Under the pieces are notes generated by a model. That model was not told the DNA's origin and did not search any database. It saw only the letters and a program-made list of their open reading frames with translations. This document shows, in pieces, positions 50,490 through 63,388 of a stretch of 64,000 nucleotides of DNA (positions are counted from its first letter, which is position 1; the number at the start of each line of letters is the position of its first letter). A program made the translations under genes and the position numbers. The stretch is from Stieleria bergensis (lineage in GTDB: Bacteria; Planctomycetota; Planctomycetia; Pirellulales; Pirellulaceae): assembly GCA_007745635.1 (NCBI GenBank), contig CP036272.1, forward strand, positions 6,337,697-6,401,696, read 5' to 3'.

Positions 50490-50796
50490 GGCACGAGGGT
50501 CTTTCGTAAGGAAAGCTTGGCAATTGCATCCAAGCAAATCGGCAAAGCAGCCAGCGTGAGAGCCTGTTCACAGGAGCGTGACGCTCGTTTCAGCGATCTG
50601 CGGATCACCTCAATCTGTGATCCAGCTTAGAGATTGCCGTCTAGAATAGCCATCTGCTCCTATTATTTCTTTTTCTTCCTAAGAAAGCGTTCTCTGGCGA
50701 GTCATCTAGTTACCGGGCAAGGTTTCCACGGAAATCTCCCCCTGGCTGACCTTCCCATCAAGTGACTCCCACCAGCGATTTTTAGCACCCGAGTGC
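50490..50796. other. Divergent intergenic region before the sigma factor gene
   Basis: About 300 bases between the DUF6653 gene and the sigma gene at 50797. A/T-rich near 50635-50690, with TAGAAT and a TATTAT stretch, but no confident -35/-10 pair. This region should hold the promoter of the sigma/vWA/giant-protein set. Confidence 0.45.
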
Positions 50797-51645
50797 ATGT
50801 TGACACCTTCGATCCCCCTCGAGCCGAGCACTGCGGAACCGAATGCCGGTGAGCCCAGCTCCATCGAAGCCAGCGGCCCCGCTGGCCAGCGGGATCTGTG
50901 CCTGCGCCAGCTCTTTGAATCGCTAGAAACGCCCTTGCTGCGGTATGCATTTTCAATGCTGCGCCGACGCGAAGTGGCCGAGGAGATTGTGCAGGAAGTG
51001 TTTATGAAACTGCACGTCCACTGGCAAACGGTGGAAAACCCGCAGGCCTGGCTGTATCGCAGCGTCCGCAACGGCGTGCTGGGTTACTTAAGAAAAAACA
51101 AAGCTGAACTACCACCAGGTTCAGCAGCCCAACGACTACTTGAACAATTTGCCAGCGATGGCACAACGGCCACGGGCAGCTTCACACAAAGCCGCCCCAG
51201 CAATCACGAACACCGCTCCAATCACTCCGCCCGTGGTGAAAAAGCTGAGGGCCAGGAAACAGAGCGTGGCACCGCGTCCGGTGAAAGTCACCAGGGGAAT
51301 GAAACCATGAGCCATCCCTCAGTTGCCAGGGACGCCGCTGCCAAAAGCTCGGCCAGCAGAACGTCATCACCGGTCGCGGTACTGGCAATGGCCTCGCTGC
51401 AACCTCAGCAATGCCCTCAGGCGATCAGTCAGCGGATCGAAGCCTGTGAATTGCTGCGGGAAGCGATCGATCAACTGGAAGCAAAAGACCAGGAGATCGT
51501 TCGGCTGAAATACTTCGAGGGCATGAAGTATCGCGAAATCAGTGAACGAACTGGTCTTAGCATTGGCAATGTCGGCTATCGCCTGCACAACATCCTAACC
51601 TCCCTGGCCAATCGATTACGCCCCTTGGGCATCGACGGCGCCTAA
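50797..51645 (+). CDS. ECF-type sigma factor with long disordered linker
   Basis: 282 residues, about 90 longer than a usual ECF sigma factor. Region 2 lies about 35-105 with EVAEEIVQEVFMKLHVHW and NPQAWLYRSVRNGVLGYLR. Region 4 lies about 215-275 with LEAKDQEIVRLKYFEGMKY and a helix-turn-helix around REISERTGLSIGNVGYRL. Between them, residues 106-208 are Ser/Thr/Glu/Gly-rich and low in order, with no similarity to a known domain. It begins the set followed by the vWA protein 70 bases downstream and the giant protein. Targets unknown; autoregulation of the set is likely by analogy. Confidence 0.92.
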   Translation: MLTPSIPLEPSTAEPNAGEPSSIEASGPAGQRDLCLRQLFESLETPLLRYAFSMLRRREVAEEIVQEVFMKLHVHWQTVENPQAWLYRSVRNGVLGYLRKNKAELPPGSAAQRLLEQFASDGTTATGSFTQSRPSNHEHRSNHSARGEKAEGQETERGTASGESHQGNETMSHPSVARDAAAKSSASRTSSPVAVLAMASLQPQQCPQAISQRIEACELLREAIDQLEAKDQEIVRLKYFEGMKYREISERTGLSIGNVGYRLHNILTSLANRLRPLGIDGA

Positions 51646-51715
51646 CCTGACCTCCGCCCCCTTTTCTCAGAATCAAACGCAACTTCCTGCCAAAACGTCT
51701 TTTGACGATCGTCCG

Positions 51716-54700
51716 ATGAGCCAAGAAAACGAACCTACGATCGACCTGGAGCTACAAACCCGCATCATTGCCATGGTGCTCGGTGAAGCCTCGGACATGG
51801 AATGCGAGCAACTGCAAGGTTTGATCGAGCAGCGTGAAGAACTGGCTGTGTTTGTCAAGGAAATCACGGAAGTTGATGACTTGATGCGCGAAGTGGTCGC
51901 CTTGCAAGCCGACCCACCCGGAACATCAGAGTCCTCCGCAAGCGAACCAGCGACGGACACGTTTGCCGAACTAGCGGATTGGGATGCAGGTCAGTGGAAA
52001 CTGTCCAGTGACCGGCGGCAGAACGTGCTGGCGGCAATCGAGTCTGCACCGAAAGGAATCGCAGCGGCGACACAATCCACAGCTTCCGGTGATCTTCAGT
52101 CCGCTGCCCAAGACGCGCTGCCTGTGTGGCAAAACAAACGCAACTTGCTCCGCTGGATCTCGATCGCCGCCTCCGTGCTGGCGCTCGCCAGTGTAAGCGT
52201 TTTCATGTTGCTGCCAAGTTACCGTCAATTTGCAGCATTCGCTCCGACTGATAGCAGGCGATACCGCAGCGTCACGATGGCCAATGATGCGCAAGCGCTC
52301 GTTGAAGACAACGCGATAGCAGCCAAGGCATTCCTTTACGACATCGAAGAAGCTCCCGCGACTGCGATCGATGGTGCGTTAGCCGAGCCTCAACTGTATT
52401 ACAAAAGTACCACAGAGGGCGACAAACGCGGTGCGATCATTGATTCTTTGCATGATCAACGATTTGCTGAGCAAGCCGAATCGGTGCAAATCGAATCGGC
52501 TCGGGGCTCCCTTGACGACAGTTTCAGCATGGGATCGGACAAGTTCATTGCACCCCAATCGCCAGCCCGTCAGTCCGCTGACTCTGACTGGAAAACCGGC
52601 ACCAAGATCGTCGACTTAGAGTCACGACTGTCCCTGTTGAACAAGTCCGCGGAGACGGAATCCCGATCACGCTATCGAGAAAGTGATGGAGACCAACCAG
52701 TGCGTGGTCAATGGCGACGCGAACGATTCGGAGAAGCGTTTGGAGAACCCAGCAGTGGCGATGGCGGACAGCCTTCGGGTCCGATCACCAAGAAGCCTCA
52801 AGAAGCGTTGCCTGCAACGACTCCTTCTTCCGGCCCCGTTTCGAACTTTTTTTCTAGAGCCACCACCGAAGGCAAGGCAACGCTGCCAACGCCCGATTAC
52901 TTGGCAGACGATGTGAAAGACCTGCCAGCTGGACCGCAGATGAAACTGGCCCCCGAGGCCACCGCAAGGGTTGCCCAGAAAGCGGAGCATTTGCAACGCC
53001 AAAGCCAGCAACAAGCTCAACAGGGCCAAGCCACTGGATTGATGAGCCGCCCCGGACTCGGCGTCAACGGACCTGGAACCAACGATCTGAGTGGCAATCA
53101 AGCGGGTGGATTCGGTTCAGTTCCCGGCAGACTGGGGATCAACGATCGAGCGTCTCGCAGTCTGGAACTGAGCGACGAAACAACCAGAATGCCTGTTGAT
53201 CTCGCTGCTCCCACCGGCAAAACAAAACGAAAGGGAGGCGCGGACCGCTTGCTTGGAGACGTCGACAATAATGGAGACGGAATCATGAATGCGGAATGGA
53301 TGAGCAAGCATGCCGGCAACGAATCCAGTTTCGGGGTCAATGGTGCCACTGGGGGCGTTTGGATGGATTCGGGAATTCAATCAAGCCAGCCGAACCAAGG
53401 ATTGCGTTTTGCCCAACCAACGGATGGATACGCTGGCCTTGGTGGGATGGATCTTGACGGCATAGCCGAGGGTGGTGGCAATGGGGGTGGAATCGGAGGC
53501 GGCCAGCCAGGCGCGCCGCCTCTCGTTGCTGGATTTGCACCTGGCAACGACGGCCCCATGGGTGGCAGCGGTGGAGCAAACTCAAGCGGCGCCAACCGCA
53601 ACGCAATCATCAGCAATGGATTCACTGGCAGTGGATTTGGCGGCGGCGGGTTTGGTGGTGGTGGCGGCGGAATGGGTGGCGGCGGCGGTGCCGTCGAGCT
53701 AAACGCTCGCGTGTCGAACGCCGACATGAGTTTGTCCCTGGACGCCTTGGGCGCAGTCGCAAACCAGCCCATCACCGGCACTGCAACCAATGGTCGAGTT
53801 TCTGGTCGTGACTCCCAGTCCGCCACCCAAGCCCAGTCCGTTGATGCCACCGAAGCCCAGTCCGCCACCGAAGCCCAGTCCGCCACCGAAGCCCTGATCG
53901 TTGGGGGCATCGTTGTGGATTCCAATGGACACCAGCCGCCTAGCTCAGCCAGTGGTGGTGAAAAGAACAGCGACTCAATGCAACTCATTGATCGCGATCG
54001 CTTACTTGCGGTCGTCGCTGGCACACCACCGGTCCCCACACAACCTTCGAATGCAGCAGCACCCGTTGATGCTCCGGCTACTACCGACCTGTTTGCCATG
54101 GGATTACGTGAAGTCGAGCGATCAGCCAGTGAGTTTTCCAGCGCCGCCCAAGCCGCCAAGGAACCAGCTGCTGCTGAAGTCAGAGAACTCGAAGAGACGC
54201 TGAAAAGCCAAGAAGCGGTTCGCGGCATCATTCGCGATCAGAGATCAGCGCTTCGATCAAAGACTGCCACCGACAACGCGGAAAAGATGTTGGAACAGTT
54301 CAAGGAAGCTGATGAATCCAGAATCGTTGAATTCGAAACCGAATCGCTTAGCGGTGAGCTGGACAAGTTGAGCTCATTGAGCGAAAGCAAGCAACCCAAC
54401 GAGACGCGTTACCAAAACAGTCACTGGGGCGGGGTTGCCGGCCGAGGCGTTGCCCTGCCGCAACCTGCCAAACCTGAGTCAGGCAAAAAAAACGCACGAG
54501 GCGGAAACCAACAACGATGGGATTTCAATCACGAAGCAGGTGATTCCCTTGACGCAGGACAAGCTGGTGAAGACTCCAGTCGCGACTTCTATTCCTACGC
54601 CGAAAAGGGCAACCGCAATGGCCAATCGATGCTAGAAGGCGAAATCGCCGAGGGAATCATCCTGAGCGTCCCACTGGAACGACGACTCAAGATGCTTGAC

Positions 54701-56293
54701 GCCAAAGCATCACACGGTGAAGCCGATGGCAAACCCACCGACGAATCCATTCGCGGCAAAGGCGCCAAAGGTGTGCCGCTGGGCTGGCGAATCGCTGACA
54801 TCTCGTTTGACGACAACGTCGACTTTGATGTCACGTTCGAACGCGACGGCCAAGCGGTCGCGGGCAAAGATGTCTCTGCCAAGTCACGACGCATCAAAGA
54901 GTCCTTTGGATTTCAAAAACAATCGCAAGCAGCAGAAAAGAAAGATGCCCAGCGCACCGCAGGATTGAACGAGACCAGCGCTAGCGAAGAACCCTTTTCA
55001 ACCTTCTCGCTTCACGTCAGTGATGTGGCTTTCAAGCTTGCTCGGACCGCACTTTCGCAAGGCCAGTGGCCTGCAGCGGACAAAGTTCGGATTGAAGAAT
55101 TCGTCAACGCCCTGGACTACTCAGATCCCAACCCCAGTCAAGACAGCAAAGTTGCCTGTCAGTTAGAACAATGCGTGCATCCCTTTTTGCAGCAACGAAA
55201 CTTGATGCGTGTCTCGATGCGGACAGCTGCGAGTGGCCGTTCAATGGCGACGCCACTTTCGCTGACATTGGTGCTTGATCATTCGGGATCCATGGAACGC
55301 GCCGATCGCCGACGACTGTTGACCGAGGCGCTCAGCGCCTTGGCAAAGCAATTGAAGCCAACCGACAAAGTGACGCTCATCAGTTTCGCTCGCACGCCTC
55401 GTTTGGTGGCTGAACAAATCGCCGGCAACCAAACCGACAAACTGCTGCAACAAGTCATCCAACAGCCAATTGAAGGCGGAACCAATCTGGAAACCGCTCT
55501 GGAGCTGGCTTACGAAAAAGCTCGCGAAGGTCATCGCAGTGGACAGTACCAAAGCCGCATCGTTTTGCTGACCGATGGAGCCGTCAACTTAGGCGACGCA
55601 GATCCAGAGAGCTTGCAAAAACGTGTCATTCAAATGCGTCAATCAGGCATCGCCTTTGACGCTGCTGGAATCAGTGCCAATGGACTGAACGACGAAGTCC
55701 TGGAGACGCTGACTCGCAAAGGCGATGGTCGCTATTACATCATCGATGGCATGGATGAATCAGACGATCGCTTCGCCCAGCAGGTCGCAGGTGCTCTGCG
55801 TCCGGCTGCGAAGAACGTCAAAGTGCAAGTCGAATTCAACCCACAGCGAGTGGGTCAATACAAGTTGCTGGGTTTCGAAAAGCACGCCTTGAAAAAGGAA
55901 GATTTCCGCAACGACAAGGTCGACGCGGCAGAAATGGCTGCCGAAGAAGCTGGCGTCGCGGTGTATCAATTCCAAGTCAATCCTGATGGACAAGGCGATA
56001 TTGGTTCGGTTTCGGTTCGTTTCCAAGACCTGGAAACGGGCCGCATGATTGAACAGCGTTGGCCGATCCCCTACCAGTCACACACCAGCGAAATGGACCA
56101 AGCTGCTCCCAGCATGCAACTGGCTGCCACCGCAGCCTTGTTCGCGGCCAAGTTACGTGGCGATGCGATCGGTCAAACCGTCGACCTCAAGGAACTTTTC
56201 CGCACCTTGCAGGCATTGCCATCAGAACAACGCCGCGCACCACGGGTCGCCGAACTGATCCAAATGATTCAACAGGCAGAGCTCATTCAGTAG
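51716..56293 (+). CDS. Membrane vWA protein (YfbK-like), probable anti-sigma
   Basis: 1525 residues. Residues 1-60 are a short acidic helical region resembling the N-terminus of the FecR-type protein at 13543, a position where anti-sigma factors bind sigma. A single membrane segment lies about 142-165 (ISIAASVLALASVSVFMLL). A long low-complexity region follows, with a dockerin/EF-like GDVDNNGDGIMNAE, a Gly-rich stretch about 583-659 and a repeat about 699-725. C-terminal domains: vWF-like about 1090-1150, vWA about 1180-1345 with an intact MIDAS (D1188, S1190, S1192, T1256, D1287) and a DUF3520-type tail. The vWA domain is probably periplasmic and binds a protein ligand through a metal ion. 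Confidence 0.92.
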   Translation: MSQENEPTIDLELQTRIIAMVLGEASDMECEQLQGLIEQREELAVFVKEITEVDDLMREVVALQADPPGTSESSASEPATDTFAELADWDAGQWKLSSDRRQNVLAAIESAPKGIAAATQSTASGDLQSAAQDALPVWQNKRNLLRWISIAASVLALASVSVFMLLPSYRQFAAFAPTDSRRYRSVTMANDAQALVEDNAIAAKAFLYDIEEAPATAIDGALAEPQLYYKSTTEGDKRGAIIDSLHDQRFAEQAESVQIESARGSLDDSFSMGSDKFIAPQSPARQSADSDWKTGTKIVDLESRLSLLNKSAETESRSRYRESDGDQPVRGQWRRERFGEAFGEPSSGDGGQPSGPITKKPQEALPATTPSSGPVSNFFSRATTEGKATLPTPDYLADDVKDLPAGPQMKLAPEATARVAQKAEHLQRQSQQQAQQGQATGLMSRPGLGVNGPGTNDLSGNQAGGFGSVPGRLGINDRASRSLELSDETTRMPVDLAAPTGKTKRKGGADRLLGDVDNNGDGIMNAEWMSKHAGNESSFGVNGATGGVWMDSGIQSSQPNQGLRFAQPTDGYAGLGGMDLDGIAEGGGNGGGIGGGQPGAPPLVAGFAPGNDGPMGGSGGANSSGANRNAIISNGFTGSGFGGGGFGGGGGGMGGGGGAVELNARVSNADMSLSLDALGAVANQPITGTATNGRVSGRDSQSATQAQSVDATEAQSATEAQSATEALIVGGIVVDSNGHQPPSSASGGEKNSDSMQLIDRDRLLAVVAGTPPVPTQPSNAAAPVDAPATTDLFAMGLREVERSASEFSSAAQAAKEPAAAEVRELEETLKSQEAVRGIIRDQRSALRSKTATDNAEKMLEQFKEADESRIVEFETESLSGELDKLSSLSESKQPNETRYQNSHWGGVAGRGVALPQPAKPESGKKNARGGNQQRWDFNHEAGDSLDAGQAGEDSSRDFYSYAEKGNRNGQSMLEGEIAEGIILSVPLERRLKMLDAKASHGEADGKPTDESIRGKGAKGVPLGWRIADISFDDNVDFDVTFERDGQAVAGKDVSAKSRRIKESFGFQKQSQAAEKKDAQRTAGLNETSASEEPFSTFSLHVSDVAFKLARTALSQGQWPAADKVRIEEFVNALDYSDPNPSQDSKVACQLEQCVHPFLQQRNLMRVSMRTAASGRSMATPLSLTLVLDHSGSMERADRRRLLTEALSALAKQLKPTDKVTLISFARTPRLVAEQIAGNQTDKLLQQVIQQPIEGGTNLETALELAYEKAREGHRSGQYQSRIVLLTDGAVNLGDADPESLQKRVIQMRQSGIAFDAAGISANGLNDEVLETLTRKGDGRYYIIDGMDESDDRFAQQVAGALRPAAKNVKVQVEFNPQRVGQYKLLGFEKHALKKEDFRNDKVDAAEMAAEEAGVAVYQFQVNPDGQGDIGSVSVRFQDLETGRMIEQRWPIPYQSHTSEMDQAAPSMQLAATAALFAAKLRGDAIGQTVDLKELFRTLQALPSEQRRAPRVAELIQMIQQAELIQ
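53814..53891 (+). repeat. 18-bp in-frame repeat in the vWA gene
   Basis: Three 18-bp units (cccagtccgccaccgaag) and one 24-bp variant encode repeated Gln-Ser-Ala-Thr-Glu-Ala in the low-complexity region of the vWA protein. Confidence 0.9.
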
Positions 56294-56374
56294 CCCGCCC
56301 GTCACCAAACAAGAAACACGAACGCTCACCTTACTCCCGCAACGGACGCCTCGCGTACCGCTGTCCAACAACTG

Positions 56375-59300
56375 ATGTCTAACGTCATGAACATGCTGAA
56401 ACGATGTCTCCTGATCACCTCCCTGGTGACCTTGCTTTTGAGCGGTCGAGCGATCGCGCAAGACGATGCCAACAAAACCTCAGATCAAACGGCGACCGAT
56501 CAGGCTGCCTCTGAGAACGTCCTAGACGCAGGCGAGGGCGGCTTTGTGATTCTGCGCAACGCCATCAGCAAGCCCAAGCTGCCCGTGATTTTCTCAGGGT
56601 CGGTTGACGCCAAGGTGACCGTCAAGAGCGACTCCGTCGCCCAGCAAATCACGCTCCAAGCCAAAGTGATTCAGGGACAGGCCAAAACGCTGACCTTCGG
56701 TATCGCAGGACAAGGCTTGGTCACCAACGTCACCGGCAAAGGCTTGACGTCCTGGGCAGTGCGAAAGGCTGGCAAATCGCGATTCCTCGACTTGCATGTC
56801 AGCGAAGACGTCAAAGACCTCCAAGCAATCATTCAAGTGAACTCGAATGATCTCAGCTTACCGGCACAGCGTGAACTGACACACTTAACCGCTGGTGACT
56901 CGATTGGCTTTGCCGCCGTGATCTCGATTCAGCACGATGCTCAAGTCGTTGCCAAAATTGCCAAGGCCGATGGCTTTGTCCCACTGGATGGCCAGAACGG
57001 CATCCAGCGTTTGCAGACCAACCAAGGCGGTCAGATCGTCCTGCAACTCAGTCGCAGCAACGGAGCTCCAGCACCTGTTGAAATCACCAATAGCACCCTG
57101 ATTGGAACCCTGCACCCCAATGGGAAATCCATCGAGTTTAAATTGCGTGGCAATGCCATTGTTTCGCAAGACGATGCCACTTTAAAGGTACTCTCTGGCA
57201 ACGCAGCCATTAGCAAGTCACCTAGCGTTGCGGGAACACGTTTGCAACTGGTCAGCACGGGCAAACAAACCCTCTACCAAATGCACTTTGACAAGCCCGG
57301 CCAATACCCACTGGAACTTGACTTTGTTGCCAAGCTAGATGAGCACCAAGATTGGCGACACATGGACTTCACCGTCGCGGCCAGCGCTGTCGTGCCGATC
57401 GCTCTGAAAGGCATCGAGCCAAGCATCGAATTCCAAGCCAGCAAGGACACCATCGTTCCCAATCGCCAAGGTGAAGACTGGGTAGGATTTCTTCCTGCAA
57501 GCGGTCGAGCCTTGGTGCGTTGGAAGCAATCGCGTGAAGAGTCCTCAGGCAAACTGTTCTTCACCACCTCTGGCTTTACCGAAACAAAAATCGGTGCGGG
57601 CTTGCTGCGTCAAGCGCATCGCGTCAGCTATCAGATTCTCCAAGGCGAACTGTCCCGCATTGACATGACGATTGCCGGCCCGGGCGAAATCCTGGAAGTG
57701 CAAGGAGCCAACATCATTTCTTGGAAAGTCCTTCCCGCCGATGACCAAGCTGATCCAACCACCTCGCGAACGCTGCAGATTGTGCTCAGCCAGCCCATCA
57801 ATGCGAAGGCGGATTTTGTGATCCAAACTCAAACCGCTTTGGGTGCCTTTCCCATTGAAGCGAAAGCGATGCGTCTAACGCCCGTTGATGCCGTTCGACA
57901 TTCTGGATACGTGCGACTTTCCAACCTGGGATCGGTTCGTCTGGAGCCCACTGAGATCTCGGGGCTGACCCAACTCGCACCCGAACAATTCCCAGCCGAA
58001 GCCATCGAGGCCCGACAAGTCTTCGCCTATCGCTTCCCCACCAGCGAGTACAACTATGGCGTGTTGGCTGATCGCGTGCAGCCCGAAGTCAGCGTTTCGC
58101 AAATCTCGGTCTACCGACTGACTGAAACCGAGCAATCGCTTCAAGCAGACATTGAACTGGACATTCGTGAAGCACCCATTCGCGAATGGGACGTTCATAT
58201 TCCAGATGACCACACTGTTGTTTCGGCAACCGGTGCAAATGTTGCCGACTACATCGTGGCCAGTGAGATTGACGCAGGCCAGAACGTTCGCAACTTAAAG
58301 ATCGTCTTTCGTGGCGATGTCTCGGGCCGTCAGTTGGTCCGCTTGGTGCTGGAGAAAACTCAAAACGCAGCCACCGGTGACTGGCAGCTGCGACCGATTC
58401 AGTTTCCAGAAACCAAGTCGGTCCGTGGTGACATCGGTGTCGCAGCCGATCCAGGCTATCGGTTGACCACGGGCACCACCGATCACTTGGCTGAAAAGAG
58501 CTTGGCCTCGTTCCCAACTCCAACGCAGAACTTGCAACAAGCGTTCCGCATTCGTCAGGCCGACTGGTCAGCAACCATGCAGGTGGAACAACTCGAACGC
58601 AGCGTACAGTCCGATGTCTTCCATCTGTATTCGCTCAGCCAAGAAACCGTCTATGGCAGTGCACTGATCAATTACTTTGTCACCGGCGCGCCGGTTTCCC
58701 AGTGGAAACTGACCGTCCCCCAGTCGCTAGGGAATGTGAACGTCGATGGGCAGGATGTTCGCACCTGGCGGCGGGAAGAGGACACGTTGATTGTCACCCT
58801 GCATCAACCGGTCATGGGTGCGTTTACCTTGCTGGTCACCTTTGAAGAAAACCCCGGCGAAGGTGGCGGCACGTTCCAAGCCGGACTGATTACGCCACAG
58901 GAAGTGCAAAACGAACGTGGCTACATCCAAGTGGTCAGCCCGATGCAAGTCGAGCTTGAAGCGCAAACGGTTTCCGATGGGATGCTGGTCTTGGACCCAC
59001 TGGAACTGCCGGCCGAGCTACGCCTACTGAGCACCGCTCCAGCCCTTGGCACCTGGCAATACACCGAACGTCCGTTCAATCTGAGCCTGAATGTTCGCTG
59101 GTTCCAGCCGGGAACGACCGCCGCACAGATCGTTGAATTCAGTGAAGTGAACAGTGATGTGACCAAGGATGGCCAGCTAGCTACCGAGATCACCTATTAC
59201 GTTAAATCGCTGGGCGGACGGTCGCTAAAAGTCAAACTGCCGGCCGACCCCGTTCGTCTCTGGGATGTCAGCGTGGATGGCAAACCTGTCAACGCCAGAC

Positions 59301-62300
59301 AAACCAAGGACGCCACGCTGATTCCACTTCCTGGTGGTGATCCTAACCGACCGATCCCAGTCACGCTGCGAATCAGCAAACCAGCGGTCAAGTCAACGCA
59401 ACCCGTGCTGTCCTTGCCGGTCGTTTTCGCACCTGTCTTGAAGACTCAATGGCGAATCCACAGCGACAAGCATCAGGTCCTGGTGCCGGTTTCCAAAGAG
59501 ATCGCGCCACCAAAGCCCGTGCTCGCGGAAACCGGATTCCAATGGATCGTCAAGCAAGGCATCTGGCTGCTGATTCGCATTGGCTTCTTTGTTGCCTTGG
59601 CGACTTGGTTGCTGCGTCGATCTGCGATCTACAAAGTGTTTGGCATCGCCGCGGGCATCGCAGCGTTTGCCGTCGCGATCACTGCAACGGACGTGGCCAT
59701 GAACCATGGCAGCCAAATTCAGCAGCTAGAACTCAACCTACCGGTGCTCTCCTCGGGTGAAGCGGTGGAGGTCGCTGTCAACAATTTGCCAACATGGATG
59801 GTTCAAGTTTCATGGCCGGGAGTTGGCCTGACCGTCGCCGCGATCATTCTGTTGCTCGCTTCGTATCGACTGAAGTCGCAACCAAAGCGTCCAGCGGTAC
59901 AGCAGTTCGCTGTTTGCCTGCTGGCTGTGGCAACCCTGCTGCAACCCAATGGAGCACCGGGACTGTTCGTGCTGATTGCCGCTTGGCTGGTGGCCTATTT
60001 GATCGCACCGCAGCTGTGGGCATTCGCCAAGTTCGTTTGGCCTTGGGGGCGAGAGGGCTGGAAGAACTTCCGCAAGAAGCGTGCCGCGGTGAAAGCTGCC
60101 AAACAGGAAGCTCGCTCAGACGTCGTCAGCAAGACGGCAACCACCGGCGTGTTGCTGCTCGCGATCTTGTTTAGCAACGCCAGTCAGGCAGGTGCGGAAG
60201 TTCCAGCTGGCTTCGTTGCTGCGGACTCGATCAACCAACAATGGCAGATCCAACATCAAGAAAACCGCTTAACTGCTACGGGGCAAGTGTCAATCGCTGG
60301 CCGACCTGGTGATCGCTTCTTGCTGCTCAAAGCGCCGGCAACCCTGACGCGTTTCGAAGGGCAAGGGCTGCGATTATCCAAACAAGTCATCCCCCAGCTG
60401 GGCATGGCTTACGTGATCAGCATCCCTGTCCCTGAAAACCAACCCGCCGGCGAACCTGCCATGGCGGATTATCAAGCCGAGTTTGATTTCCAGCTCGAAG
60501 ACATCCAGCATCGACAGGGGATCGCTGTGCTGACAGGTCCAGCAGCGCTACGCAAGATTGATGTACAGCTTGACCAAGCTGACTGGGAAATCTCATGCAA
60601 TACCGCAGTTCGCGTGGAACCCTCAGCTGGCAAAGACAAAACCGAAGCCACCGTGCTACTCGGCCTTGGTGATGCGACGGTGACCCTGAAGCCGATGGCT
60701 CGCGATGTGACCACCGAGGAAACACAGTTCTTTGTCGAATCGTCAAACCTCTTTATCCCGGGCCCAGGTGTCGTTGACGGCACGCACCAGTTAAATGTTC
60801 GTACATCACAAGGCCAAGTGAGTTCGCTGGACGTGATGATTCCGGCGGGCTTCATGGTCAGCTCGGTCGACGGCCCCATCGGAGCTTGGCAATTTGATGC
60901 CGAGAAACAACAACTCAAGGTCGCGATTGAACCCGCGCAATCGGGCGCATTTGAGGTCATGATTCAGACTCAGCGTGGCCTGGACACACTGCCTGCAGAT
61001 GTCGCACTTAGCCCCGTCACCGTTGATCAACCCGATGGACAAGTGGGCTTGGTGGCCGTTGCCTTTGGTCCCGACGCTCAGCCGGAAAAAGTTGATACGA
61101 ACAACCTGTCCGCGGTGAACCTGAGCGACTTCGACGCACGACTGCTGAACGGTCGAAAGGTTGCGATTCACAAGGTGTATCGTTACGGTGCAGAAGGTGG
61201 CGACCTGACAGCGCGAGTCGTGCCTGTGGATGCCGAGGTTCGCTTGATGAGCGAGCAAGTGCTCTCGATCGGTGATGAACGAGTGGTGCTTGCGGTCAAC
61301 TTTGCCGCTGGCATCTCCCGCGCCGGCTTGTTTCAACTAAGCTTCCCCTTGCCCGATGGATTTGAAGTCGAATCACTCACCGGGGCTTCGCTTAGCCATT
61401 GGTCGGAAATCGATGACAATGGTGGTCGCCGTGTGATCATGCACCTCAATGGGAAAACCATTGGAGCCCAGTCGTTCTCATTGACTTTGACAGGGACGAC
61501 GGCTGCCGAGGGCGGTCAATGGCAAGTGCCCCGTTTTGAACTTGACCAAGCAGAACGTTCGTCGGGAAAGCTAATCGTTCGACCCACCACGGGTTTGCGT
61601 TTACGCGCGGTTTCTCGGCTGAACGTCACCGAGATTGATCCGCGTTCCTTGGGCGGGCAAGGGCAGGGTGCGATCGCATTCAACTTGCTGCAATCAGACT
61701 GGGACTTAGTGCTGGGCATTGAGAAACTGGACCCCTGGGTCATCGCTCAAGTCCTGCATGAAGTGACACTACGAGAAGGCCAGACTCGTTCGACCTTGAT
61801 GATTGATTTGGACGTCCAGAACGCCTCGATCCGAACATTCCCGATCACCGTGCCACTGGCCGACGATGCAGTCCTCAAGACATTGCGAGCGGCCGGCGAA
61901 AAGGTTGCCGACATGGTTCGCGTCTCTCCTGATTCGAATGTCTGGGAATTGCAGTTCAAAGAACGCATTGTGGGCAAGACCATGGTACGGATCGAATATG
62001 AACGTCGTGGCCAACGCACAAATGATACCGAATCGCTTGTGCCTTTCGTTTTCCCCCAAGCCCGACAACTGGCCTATTTCTTTGGTGTTCGCACCGGCGG
62101 TCGACTGGAGATTGAAGCAGAAGCCTTGACCCAAGGCTGGCAACAAGCTGACTGGAATGCGGTTCCGCAAGCGTTGCGTGCCTCAGGACTACGCAGTGCT
62201 CCTATGATCTTGCTGCGGGCAGTGAATCCAGCCGGAGCCTTGGGTGTGAGCGTGAAACGCCATTCCATTGCCGACTCCTTAAAACTGCGAGTGACCGAAG

Positions 62301-63388
62301 GCCGGTTGACCTCGGTGCTCTCACCAACAGGTGATCAACTGACGGCCGTCGATGTCACCATGGAAGTCATGCAGCGCAGCAGCCTGAGCGTTGGGCTACC
62401 GCAGGGCGGTGAACTGATTAGCATCTTTGTCAACGGCGAGAGCGTCAACTCGATTCGACTGGGACAGAACTCCAACACCTGGCAATTCTATGTCTTACCA
62501 GGACTACAAGACCGCACCGCCACGGTCAGTTTTGTCTACAGCGTGACCGGCGGCGATCTCAAGAACTTGAAACTGCTCAGCCCAGAACTAAGCGTTCCGC
62601 TGAAAGATATCCAGTGGGATGTCATTGCTCCGCTTGGTTTTGAGCTAACTGATGATGACGGCAACATGGAACTGACGGGCCATCCTGTTCGCATGTCCTA
62701 TGATCGCCAAGACTATGAACAGTTAGTCAACAGCGAACGACAAGCGAAGCAAGCGAACGCCGTGAACATGCTGAGGCAGGCCGGCCAGTTGCTTCAACAA
62801 GGTGACCGCAGCAAAGCGAACTGGGTCTTCAACAGTGTCGCCAACCAATACGCGTTGGACGCCGCGACAAACGAAGACGTGCGTGTTCAACTGGAAAACC
62901 TGCAGACCGAACAAGCCATCGTCGGACTCAATAGCCGTCGACAACGACTGTTCCTTGACAACAGCGATGATCAATCGGCGACCCTGGATCAACAGTGGAA
63001 GCAGGCAGCAACCACCAACCCGATCCTGCAACAGAACCAAGTCAATTTCCGTCCCCAGCAATTGAGTGCCTTACTACAAGGCAACTCGTCGGCGGACAAT
63101 CAAGCCTTGCTCAAGATCGCCGCTCGGCTCGTTCAGCATCAGCACAGCACTCAACCCGCTCCACAAGCGATTCGCATCAACATGCCAGAAGAAGGCAATG
63201 TGTACACGTTCCGCCGATCGGTTCAGGTTGCCGAAAAAGCACCGCTGGAAATCGAGGTCGATGTGCAACTGGAACGTCGGCTGAAGACCTGGCAAGTGGC
63301 GGCCACCGTGTTGCTGCTAGCCATCATGGCTGTGGTCATGTTCGTCGCTCGAAAACCCGCCGCGACAACACAAACCGCCGGGGCATAA
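56375..63388 (+). CDS. Giant two-part envelope protein of repeated beta-rich modules
   Basis: 2337 residues with no family I recognise. A signal peptide (LLITSLVTLLLSGRAIAQ) opens the first half, about 1050 residues, beta-rich and without Cys motifs. Around 1058-1220 lie four to five membrane segments (IRIGFFVALATWLL, VFGIAAGIAAFAVAI, GLTVAAIILLLAS, GLFVLIAAWLVAYLI), and at about 1254-1275 a signal-like segment (TGVLLLAILFSNASQAGAE) leads into a second beta-rich half, which ends with a coiled-coil-like stretch and a C-terminal membrane segment (TVLLLAIMAVVMFVA). A module of about 150 residues starting with V-x-x-V-x-G-x-x-V-x-x-W recurs in both halves. It ends the sigma/vWA set, 81 bases after the vWA gene. 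Confidence 0.9.
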   Translation: MSNVMNMLKRCLLITSLVTLLLSGRAIAQDDANKTSDQTATDQAASENVLDAGEGGFVILRNAISKPKLPVIFSGSVDAKVTVKSDSVAQQITLQAKVIQGQAKTLTFGIAGQGLVTNVTGKGLTSWAVRKAGKSRFLDLHVSEDVKDLQAIIQVNSNDLSLPAQRELTHLTAGDSIGFAAVISIQHDAQVVAKIAKADGFVPLDGQNGIQRLQTNQGGQIVLQLSRSNGAPAPVEITNSTLIGTLHPNGKSIEFKLRGNAIVSQDDATLKVLSGNAAISKSPSVAGTRLQLVSTGKQTLYQMHFDKPGQYPLELDFVAKLDEHQDWRHMDFTVAASAVVPIALKGIEPSIEFQASKDTIVPNRQGEDWVGFLPASGRALVRWKQSREESSGKLFFTTSGFTETKIGAGLLRQAHRVSYQILQGELSRIDMTIAGPGEILEVQGANIISWKVLPADDQADPTTSRTLQIVLSQPINAKADFVIQTQTALGAFPIEAKAMRLTPVDAVRHSGYVRLSNLGSVRLEPTEISGLTQLAPEQFPAEAIEARQVFAYRFPTSEYNYGVLADRVQPEVSVSQISVYRLTETEQSLQADIELDIREAPIREWDVHIPDDHTVVSATGANVADYIVASEIDAGQNVRNLKIVFRGDVSGRQLVRLVLEKTQNAATGDWQLRPIQFPETKSVRGDIGVAADPGYRLTTGTTDHLAEKSLASFPTPTQNLQQAFRIRQADWSATMQVEQLERSVQSDVFHLYSLSQETVYGSALINYFVTGAPVSQWKLTVPQSLGNVNVDGQDVRTWRREEDTLIVTLHQPVMGAFTLLVTFEENPGEGGGTFQAGLITPQEVQNERGYIQVVSPMQVELEAQTVSDGMLVLDPLELPAELRLLSTAPALGTWQYTERPFNLSLNVRWFQPGTTAAQIVEFSEVNSDVTKDGQLATEITYYVKSLGGRSLKVKLPADPVRLWDVSVDGKPVNARQTKDATLIPLPGGDPNRPIPVTLRISKPAVKSTQPVLSLPVVFAPVLKTQWRIHSDKHQVLVPVSKEIAPPKPVLAETGFQWIVKQGIWLLIRIGFFVALATWLLRRSAIYKVFGIAAGIAAFAVAITATDVAMNHGSQIQQLELNLPVLSSGEAVEVAVNNLPTWMVQVSWPGVGLTVAAIILLLASYRLKSQPKRPAVQQFAVCLLAVATLLQPNGAPGLFVLIAAWLVAYLIAPQLWAFAKFVWPWGREGWKNFRKKRAAVKAAKQEARSDVVSKTATTGVLLLAILFSNASQAGAEVPAGFVAADSINQQWQIQHQENRLTATGQVSIAGRPGDRFLLLKAPATLTRFEGQGLRLSKQVIPQLGMAYVISIPVPENQPAGEPAMADYQAEFDFQLEDIQHRQGIAVLTGPAALRKIDVQLDQADWEISCNTAVRVEPSAGKDKTEATVLLGLGDATVTLKPMARDVTTEETQFFVESSNLFIPGPGVVDGTHQLNVRTSQGQVSSLDVMIPAGFMVSSVDGPIGAWQFDAEKQQLKVAIEPAQSGAFEVMIQTQRGLDTLPADVALSPVTVDQPDGQVGLVAVAFGPDAQPEKVDTNNLSAVNLSDFDARLLNGRKVAIHKVYRYGAEGGDLTARVVPVDAEVRLMSEQVLSIGDERVVLAVNFAAGISRAGLFQLSFPLPDGFEVESLTGASLSHWSEIDDNGGRRVIMHLNGKTIGAQSFSLTLTGTTAAEGGQWQVPRFELDQAERSSGKLIVRPTTGLRLRAVSRLNVTEIDPRSLGGQGQGAIAFNLLQSDWDLVLGIEKLDPWVIAQVLHEVTLREGQTRSTLMIDLDVQNASIRTFPITVPLADDAVLKTLRAAGEKVADMVRVSPDSNVWELQFKERIVGKTMVRIEYERRGQRTNDTESLVPFVFPQARQLAYFFGVRTGGRLEIEAEALTQGWQQADWNAVPQALRASGLRSAPMILLRAVNPAGALGVSVKRHSIADSLKLRVTEGRLTSVLSPTGDQLTAVDVTMEVMQRSSLSVGLPQGGELISIFVNGESVNSIRLGQNSNTWQFYVLPGLQDRTATVSFVYSVTGGDLKNLKLLSPELSVPLKDIQWDVIAPLGFELTDDDGNMELTGHPVRMSYDRQDYEQLVNSERQAKQANAVNMLRQAGQLLQQGDRSKANWVFNSVANQYALDAATNEDVRVQLENLQTEQAIVGLNSRRQRLFLDNSDDQSATLDQQWKQAATTNPILQQNQVNFRPQQLSALLQGNSSADNQALLKIAARLVQHQHSTQPAPQAIRINMPEEGNVYTFRRSVQVAEKAPLEIEVDVQLERRLKTWQVAATVLLLAIMAVVMFVARKPAATTQTAGA

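Follow-up and report, generated by a model that had tools for sequence, protein, structure and literature searches.

In cell-surface signaling of the FecI–FecR–FecA type, an extracytoplasmic function (ECF) sigma factor works with a single-pass anti-sigma factor and with a large envelope partner that is itself under control of the sigma factor. A published account of the FoxR/FoxA system describes the outer partner as contacting the anti-sigma factor and protecting it (PMC11637429). Here, we analyzed 64,000 nt of Stieleria bergensis DNA (GCA_007745635.1, contig CP036272.1, positions 6,337,697–6,401,696 of the forward strand; hereafter the window), in which three consecutive open reading frames (ORFs) encode an ECF sigma factor of 282 aa (50797–51645), a single-pass protein of 1525 aa with a von Willebrand factor A (vWA) module (51716–56293), and a giant membrane protein of 2337 aa (56375–63388). 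All of these features, and the other window features described below, lie on the plus strand. Gaps of 70 bases (sigma/vWA) and 81 bases (vWA/giant) separate the genes, and both the places and the gaps agree with an earlier note made from this DNA. We estimate a probability of roughly 55% that the three genes form an autoregulated three-component ECF signaling operon, in which the giant is at once a product and the monitored partner.

Linkage of the sigma, vWA and giant genes

To define the distribution of the set, we used an alignment of 24 giants to scan GTDB representatives, which yielded 127 relatives, and kept the best 80 (73 loci). Record titles among these 80 name Planctomycetota or Verrucomicrobiota, save for L159, for which no phylum is named. 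The order sigma–vWA–giant was found in all 49 loci whose contig extends upstream of the vWA gene; a contig edge truncates the remaining 24 of the 73 loci, in 10 cases within a vWA gene that adjoins the giant gene. In 39 of the 49 trio loci, the end of the sigma gene and the start of the vWA gene share 4 bases. The trio was also kept at 16 of 20 remote giant homologues that we fetched; among the exceptions, one is cut inside the vWA gene (L208) and another has the sigma–vWA pair with the giant 2.8 kb downstream (L209). The PF12450 matches of the vWA family split into a high-scoring and a low-scoring clade. From the low-scoring clade of divergent vWA proteins, we fetched 22 loci beyond the window's genus, with the trio at 19, two cut, and the pair only at one. 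The best-73, divergent-clade and remote locus sets share some genomes. Of 60 relatives, 21 had a match to the giant, some of them distant, and within the window's genus so did 12 of 14 genomes, counting its own; profile matches occurred in 61 of 392 genomes across the window's phylum and 53 of 288 across the phylum of L134, which is labelled Opitutaceae.

Loss of the linkage in other genomes, which the earlier note had named as one outcome that would count against its proposal, did not arise. The recurrence of the same three genes in every testable locus indicates that the set is more than chance and supports the view, from gene order, that the sigma, vWA and giant genes are one conserved unit. 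Because the three genes recur together and in the same order in two phyla, the giant probably either belongs to one self-controlled envelope signaling unit or is made by it. A four-gene version was seen at L212 (7670–12603), consisting of a sigma gene, a 656-aa protein with zf-HC2 and YfbK matches, a second vWA protein of 792 aa, and a giant.

We also compared the histories of the three proteins. A tree of 44 giants (43 loci and the window) placed the two phyla on opposite sides of one branch, with 31 versus 12 labelled rows, the window uncounted. In this set, the pairwise distances of the sigma factor, vWA protein and giant correlated at 0.81, 0.84 and 0.93. As a control we used RpoB, which was usable in 24 of the 30 genomes asked, a short sequence (L115) being excluded. 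On these 24 genomes, the distances of the trio proteins correlated mutually at 0.76, 0.82 and 0.90, with the giant–vWA pair tracking best, compared to 0.37, 0.40 and 0.50 with RpoB, values that may be lowered by metagenome bins combining RpoB and an operon from different organisms. Partial correlations given RpoB were 0.72, 0.79 and 0.88, and 0 of 2000 permutations were as high. By these distances, the three genes move together as a unit, through either transfer or shared acceleration. Operons can persist, and the set could be an old operon retained without functional coupling, but its order is kept between the two phyla while the flanks change, and the shared departure from RpoB distances likewise argues against plain neighborhood, which we consider very improbable.

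Architecture of the three proteins

The sigma factor matched Sigma70_r2 (E = 2.3e-11) and Sigma70_r4_2 (E = 1.4e-14), both over the Pfam cut-offs, and TIGR02937. Sigma regions 2 and 4 over cut-off with no region 3 match listed by Pfam is the pattern expected of an ECF sigma factor. Between these regions lies an extra segment of roughly 85–90 residues (about residues 113–200; 51133–51396) that is absent from 48 aligned relatives. Forty-seven of these relatives are 181–214 aa long, and the length of the other, 284 aa, seems due to an overrun of the ORF start.

The vWA protein, a putative anti-sigma factor, contains a single transmembrane segment by hydropathy (residues 148–166; 52157–52213), and one hydrophobic segment was likewise found in 47 of 50 vWA proteins. 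It is followed by a low-complexity tether (residues 167–1085; 52214–54970), of which 79% is G, S, P, Q, N, E, D, K, R, T or A, and which is about 920 residues long in the window and 321–1012 residues long in 47 relatives. The C-terminal module (residues 1086–1522; 54971–56281) has the order that defines the YfbK family, namely vWF_A (2.3e-15), VWA (1.9e-16) and YfbK_C (6.6e-29), all over the Pfam cut-offs. Its metal ion-dependent adhesion site (MIDAS) is complete, with D1188, S1190, S1192, T1256 and D1287 unchanged across all 58 proteins aligned, the window's among them. Pfam, hydropathy and alignment thus bear out the earlier description of a single-pass protein with a YfbK-type module and an intact MIDAS. 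A PDB sequence search with the module matched only the vWA domain of inter-alpha-trypsin inhibitor H4. At L078 (12854–14152 and 10599–12905) and also at L108, the vWA gene was seen as two ORFs, one for the N-terminus and one for the module. Short matches to SBP_bac_10/DUF1559 (pseudopilin-like) follow the transmembrane segment of three vWA proteins; those of L066 and L215 pass the Pfam cut-off, and that of L063 falls short of it. One giant relative from the alignment matches the same family at 5.2e-53.

The N-terminal domain of the vWA protein (residues 1–115; 51716–52060) lacks zinc ligands. Its first ~100 residues are conserved across 41 aligned proteins, with the consensus PELEARIVALVLGEASDFER..L.RLIE.RPELA and a second block, WKLS.E.R..VLAVI. 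Scans with single members gave weak matches: NCBIfam returned a putative anti-sigmaE family in 5 of 41 (best E = 0.0016) and an anti-sigma factor in 3 of 41, and Pfam returned zf-HC2 in 2 of 41 (best E = 0.19) and, as its commonest match, HTH_32 in 9 of 41 (best 0.036). Comparison of profiles linked the trio N-termini to those of the remote trios (E = 8.4e-13) and of canonical planctomycete YfbK proteins (E = 2.6e-13), and linked the remote trio N-termini to zinc-finger anti-sigma domains (E = 1.3e-14); no column-shuffled control was better than 0.18. For this comparison, 10 of 18 extracted zinc-type sequences were selected by eye, as were 11 canonical N-termini from a longer list. The motif HxxxCxxC, absent from the window protein, is present in 11 of 17 remote vWA orthologues, one of which (L208) is cut at its N-terminus, and zf-HC2 is over the Pfam cut-off in 7 of the 11 that bear the motif. 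For the earlier proposal that this N-terminus is anti-sigma-like, the indirect chain of profiles to zinc-finger domains is significant, whereas a direct comparison of the trio N-termini with the zinc-finger set was not significant (probability 0.9%, E = 0.058). According to one paper on class I anti-sigma factors, some families contain both zinc and zinc-less members and the latter are common, so the motif is not required (PMC7406223). A gene adjoining that of its sigma factor, another mark of this class, was found in the window and in 49 of 49 testable loci. Taken together, the alignments and profiles make it likely that the N-terminal domain is an anti-sigma domain, and we predict that it binds the sigma factor.

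An alternative is that the vWA protein is mainly an envelope or adhesive structural protein acting with the giant, tied to the sigma factor by shared transcription only, and that its N-terminus is no working anti-sigma domain in the window's species. The missing zinc ligands and the non-significant direct comparison fit this alternative, as does the derived state of the window copy, which has the sigma insertion, the 70-base gap, and an end branch of 0.75 in the tree of giants compared to a median of 0.34. Against it, the N-terminal domain is conserved over 41 proteins whereas the tether behind it is not, the remote orthologues have the zinc motif at the equivalent place, and the sigma and vWA genes overlap in most trio loci. 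We regard this alternative as unlikely.

The giant matched no Pfam family over cut-off (the best matches, PF00124 at E = 0.005 and PF10988 at 0.012, were both below), in agreement with the earlier assignment to no known family. It is an internal duplication whose two halves are homologous (profile probability 99.3%, E = 2.8e-20). By comparison of half and unit profiles, the first ectodomain (residues 30–1055; 56462–59539) has about four repeat units near residues 429, 605, 777 and 951, and the second (residues 1290–2300; 60242–63274) has about four near 1485, 1653, 1822 and 2004. The unit is ~172 residues long and the eight starts were chosen by eye. Only 5 of 28 unit pairs score above 90%, and one of the four equivalent pairs between the halves, 777/1822, scores only 17.8%; four plus four units are therefore likely, with not every unit secured. 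Hydropathy places a cluster of four hydrophobic segments between the ectodomains (residues 1058–1211; 59546–60007), with 4–6 such segments in 50 relatives, and a C-terminal transmembrane segment at residues 2307–2325 (63293–63349), with a hydrophobic segment ending 48 of the 50. Two genes take the place of a single giant gene in 4 of the 49 trio loci, and the second gene opens with its own signal-peptide-like segment at the position of an internal segment of this kind in the window protein (residues 1254–1274; 60134–60196).

TPR_2 matches in 4 of 18 diverse giant relatives (Pfam) suggest a tetratricopeptide repeat (TPR)-like region before the C-terminus in relatives. For the giant, one PDB sequence search gave no match and another gave mostly designed TPR proteins (best E = 0.0073). 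The long branch of the window giant agrees with the other derived traits of this copy, the sigma insertion and the loss of the sigma/vWA overlap. Remote giant paralogues were seen as an overlapping gene pair, of 1265 aa and at least 1343 aa, at L045 (2–7775; about 74000–81800 in the window's own genome); no sigma or vWA gene was seen alongside, and similar pairs occur in other genomes.

A candidate promoter and the proposed mechanism

A conserved motif upstream of sigma genes, together with a model score, marks a candidate ECF-type promoter in the window, CTAAGAA-N13-GAGTCA (50679–50704), of the form CTAAGAAA-N12-GGGTCT. We counted bipartite words upstream of sigma genes without a prior model, using 44 sequences after dropping 6 loci without a sigma anchor. 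The commonest word, AAGAA-N14-GGTC, occurred in 14 of 44 upstream sequences and in at most 4 in each of three shuffled sets. The consensus CTAAGAAA-N12-GGGTCT fits with a gap of 12 in 42 of 44 loci, Verrucomicrobiota and window included, and scores at least 11 of 14 in 43 of 44 loci compared to 36 of 880 shuffles; these loci served both to derive the consensus and to score it. Among the remote trios the promoter is partly shared, with 2 of 17 scoring 12 and the others 8–10. A sigma-70 consensus scan for separate promoters of the vWA and giant genes, the sole promoter scan made there, was at chance level.

Within the window's own genome, a sequence model trained with the operon site ranked that site first at 20.3 bits, with the next at 13.7, among the 150 of 648 first-look candidates that were scored. 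The strict pattern gave 2 matches, as did a reversed control. Since the control equaled it, the second strict match (L173), 62 bases before the start of a 374-aa ORF that looks secreted, was discounted, and a regulon beyond the operon is therefore not demonstrated. These searches are compatible with a small regulon of the sigma factor. In genome G145, near-identical copies of CTAAGAACCTATCCGAAAAGGGGTCT at L175, L190, L193, L194 and L196–L200 match the promoter pattern and are probably a dispersed repeat.

In the reading that we favor, the sigma factor would recognize the promoter before its own gene, as the conserved motif suggests, and so direct synthesis of itself, the membrane anti-sigma factor and the giant. 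The anti-sigma factor would hold the sigma factor through its cytoplasmic N-terminal domain, cross the membrane once, and present its YfbK-type vWA module outside the cytoplasm on a long flexible tether, as judged from its architecture. The giant would be an inner-membrane protein with two repeat-built ectodomains, serving as both the main product and the partner monitored by the vWA module through its MIDAS. With the giant in place, the anti-sigma factor would be stable; when the giant is missing, displaced or strained, the anti-sigma factor would be cut or reshaped, freeing the sigma factor to make more giant. We infer this direction of the signal by analogy with the FoxR/FoxA contact. More tentative is an extended form, a three-component pathway of Planctomycetota and Verrucomicrobiota in which the sigma factor would be devoted mainly to one operon and the giant would be monitored by an integrin-like contact of the tethered vWA module through its MIDAS, making a homeostat for one giant molecule.

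Several observations weigh against an autoregulated operon with a monitored giant. The 70-base gap between the sigma and vWA genes in the window differs from the overlap usual among relatives. The window vWA N-terminus matches no Pfam or NCBIfam family, a PDB sequence search found no match for the N-terminal domain, and its tie to zinc-finger domains fails in direct comparison. As noted, one set of loci served for deriving and scoring the promoter consensus; across 10 relatives the strict pattern recovered the operon site in only 5 and was not enriched over the reversed control (26 versus 54 matches), and the sequence model listed the operon site in 5 of 8 genomes, as the best in 4 of those. 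Linkage also has exceptions: a sigma–vWA pair without a giant at L060 (the second copy in genome G072, and 1 of the 22 divergent-clade loci); giants alone, with no sigma–vWA pair, at L217 and L218 (2 of the 20 remote loci); and canonical sigma–YfbK pairs, which also occur without a giant. Finally, that binding of the giant to the vWA module controls release of the sigma factor is an inference.

Alternatively, the giant may be output only: the sigma factor and vWA anti-sigma factor would by themselves suffice to sense some other envelope signal, and the giant would be the structural protein made in response. Pairs by themselves are common. At canonical YfbK loci that we fetched (L058, L086–L099), a sigma gene adjoins the YfbK gene in 13 of 15 with no giant in the fetched stretch, the trio-clade locus L060 holds the pair by itself, and in the trios the giant gene sits behind the same promoter as the pair. 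But the giant adjoins the pair in nearly all of the divergent vWA clade (19 of 22 loci, with two more cut), and the close tracking of giant and vWA distances (0.90) suggests, without proving, contact. We regard an output-only giant as possible but doubtful, and prefer the autoregulated operon with the giant as monitored partner. One YfbK protein, at L091 (5332–7590), has a lipoprotein-like start, and no sigma gene was found nearby.

Comparison with described systems

We found no description of the sigma–vWA–giant set in the literature searched, the coverage of which was incomplete, so that absence from print is not established. Compared to ECF sigma/class I anti-sigma pairs, the window set is alike in having a sigma factor with regions 2 and 4 only, an adjoining gene for a protein with a putative N-terminal anti-sigma domain and a membrane anchor, and a family in which zinc and zinc-less members are mixed; it differs in carrying a YfbK-type vWA module as the extracytoplasmic part and in having a giant as a third gene. 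Compared to YfbK-type vWA proteins, vWF_A, VWA and YfbK_C are all over cut-off, but vWF_A scores about 48–62 bits in the trio proteins and mostly above 80 bits in the canonical clade, and the trio proteins have a long tether and an anti-sigma-like N-terminus. The canonical planctomycete sigma–YfbK pairs resemble the trio in their sigma–YfbK adjacency and homologous N-termini but differ in having no giant in the fetched stretch and in their 15 sigma genes, where the best fits to the trio promoter score only 8–11.

The closest parallel is with FecI–FecR–FecA and FoxI–FoxR–FoxA. Like these, the window set comprises an ECF sigma factor, a putative single-pass anti-sigma factor, and a large envelope partner that would be under sigma control and would touch the anti-sigma factor outside the cytoplasm. 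Unlike these, it has a giant that combines repeat-built ectodomains with a membrane cluster at its center, and its anti-sigma factor bears a vWA/YfbK module on a long tether. Pfam found no TonB-dependent receptor match in the window giant or 18 diverse relatives and no FecR domain in the vWA protein. In plan the window set resembles FecI–FecR–FecA signaling, but with these defining parts absent it is not a member of it. The linkage places an unnamed family of giant membrane proteins in a genetic context and offers it a role that can be tested, in two phyla with a poorly understood envelope biology. The plan of ECF signaling would be widened in two ways: the outer part of an anti-sigma factor could be a vWA module, and a repeat-built giant could occupy the position taken in iron signaling by a TonB-dependent receptor.

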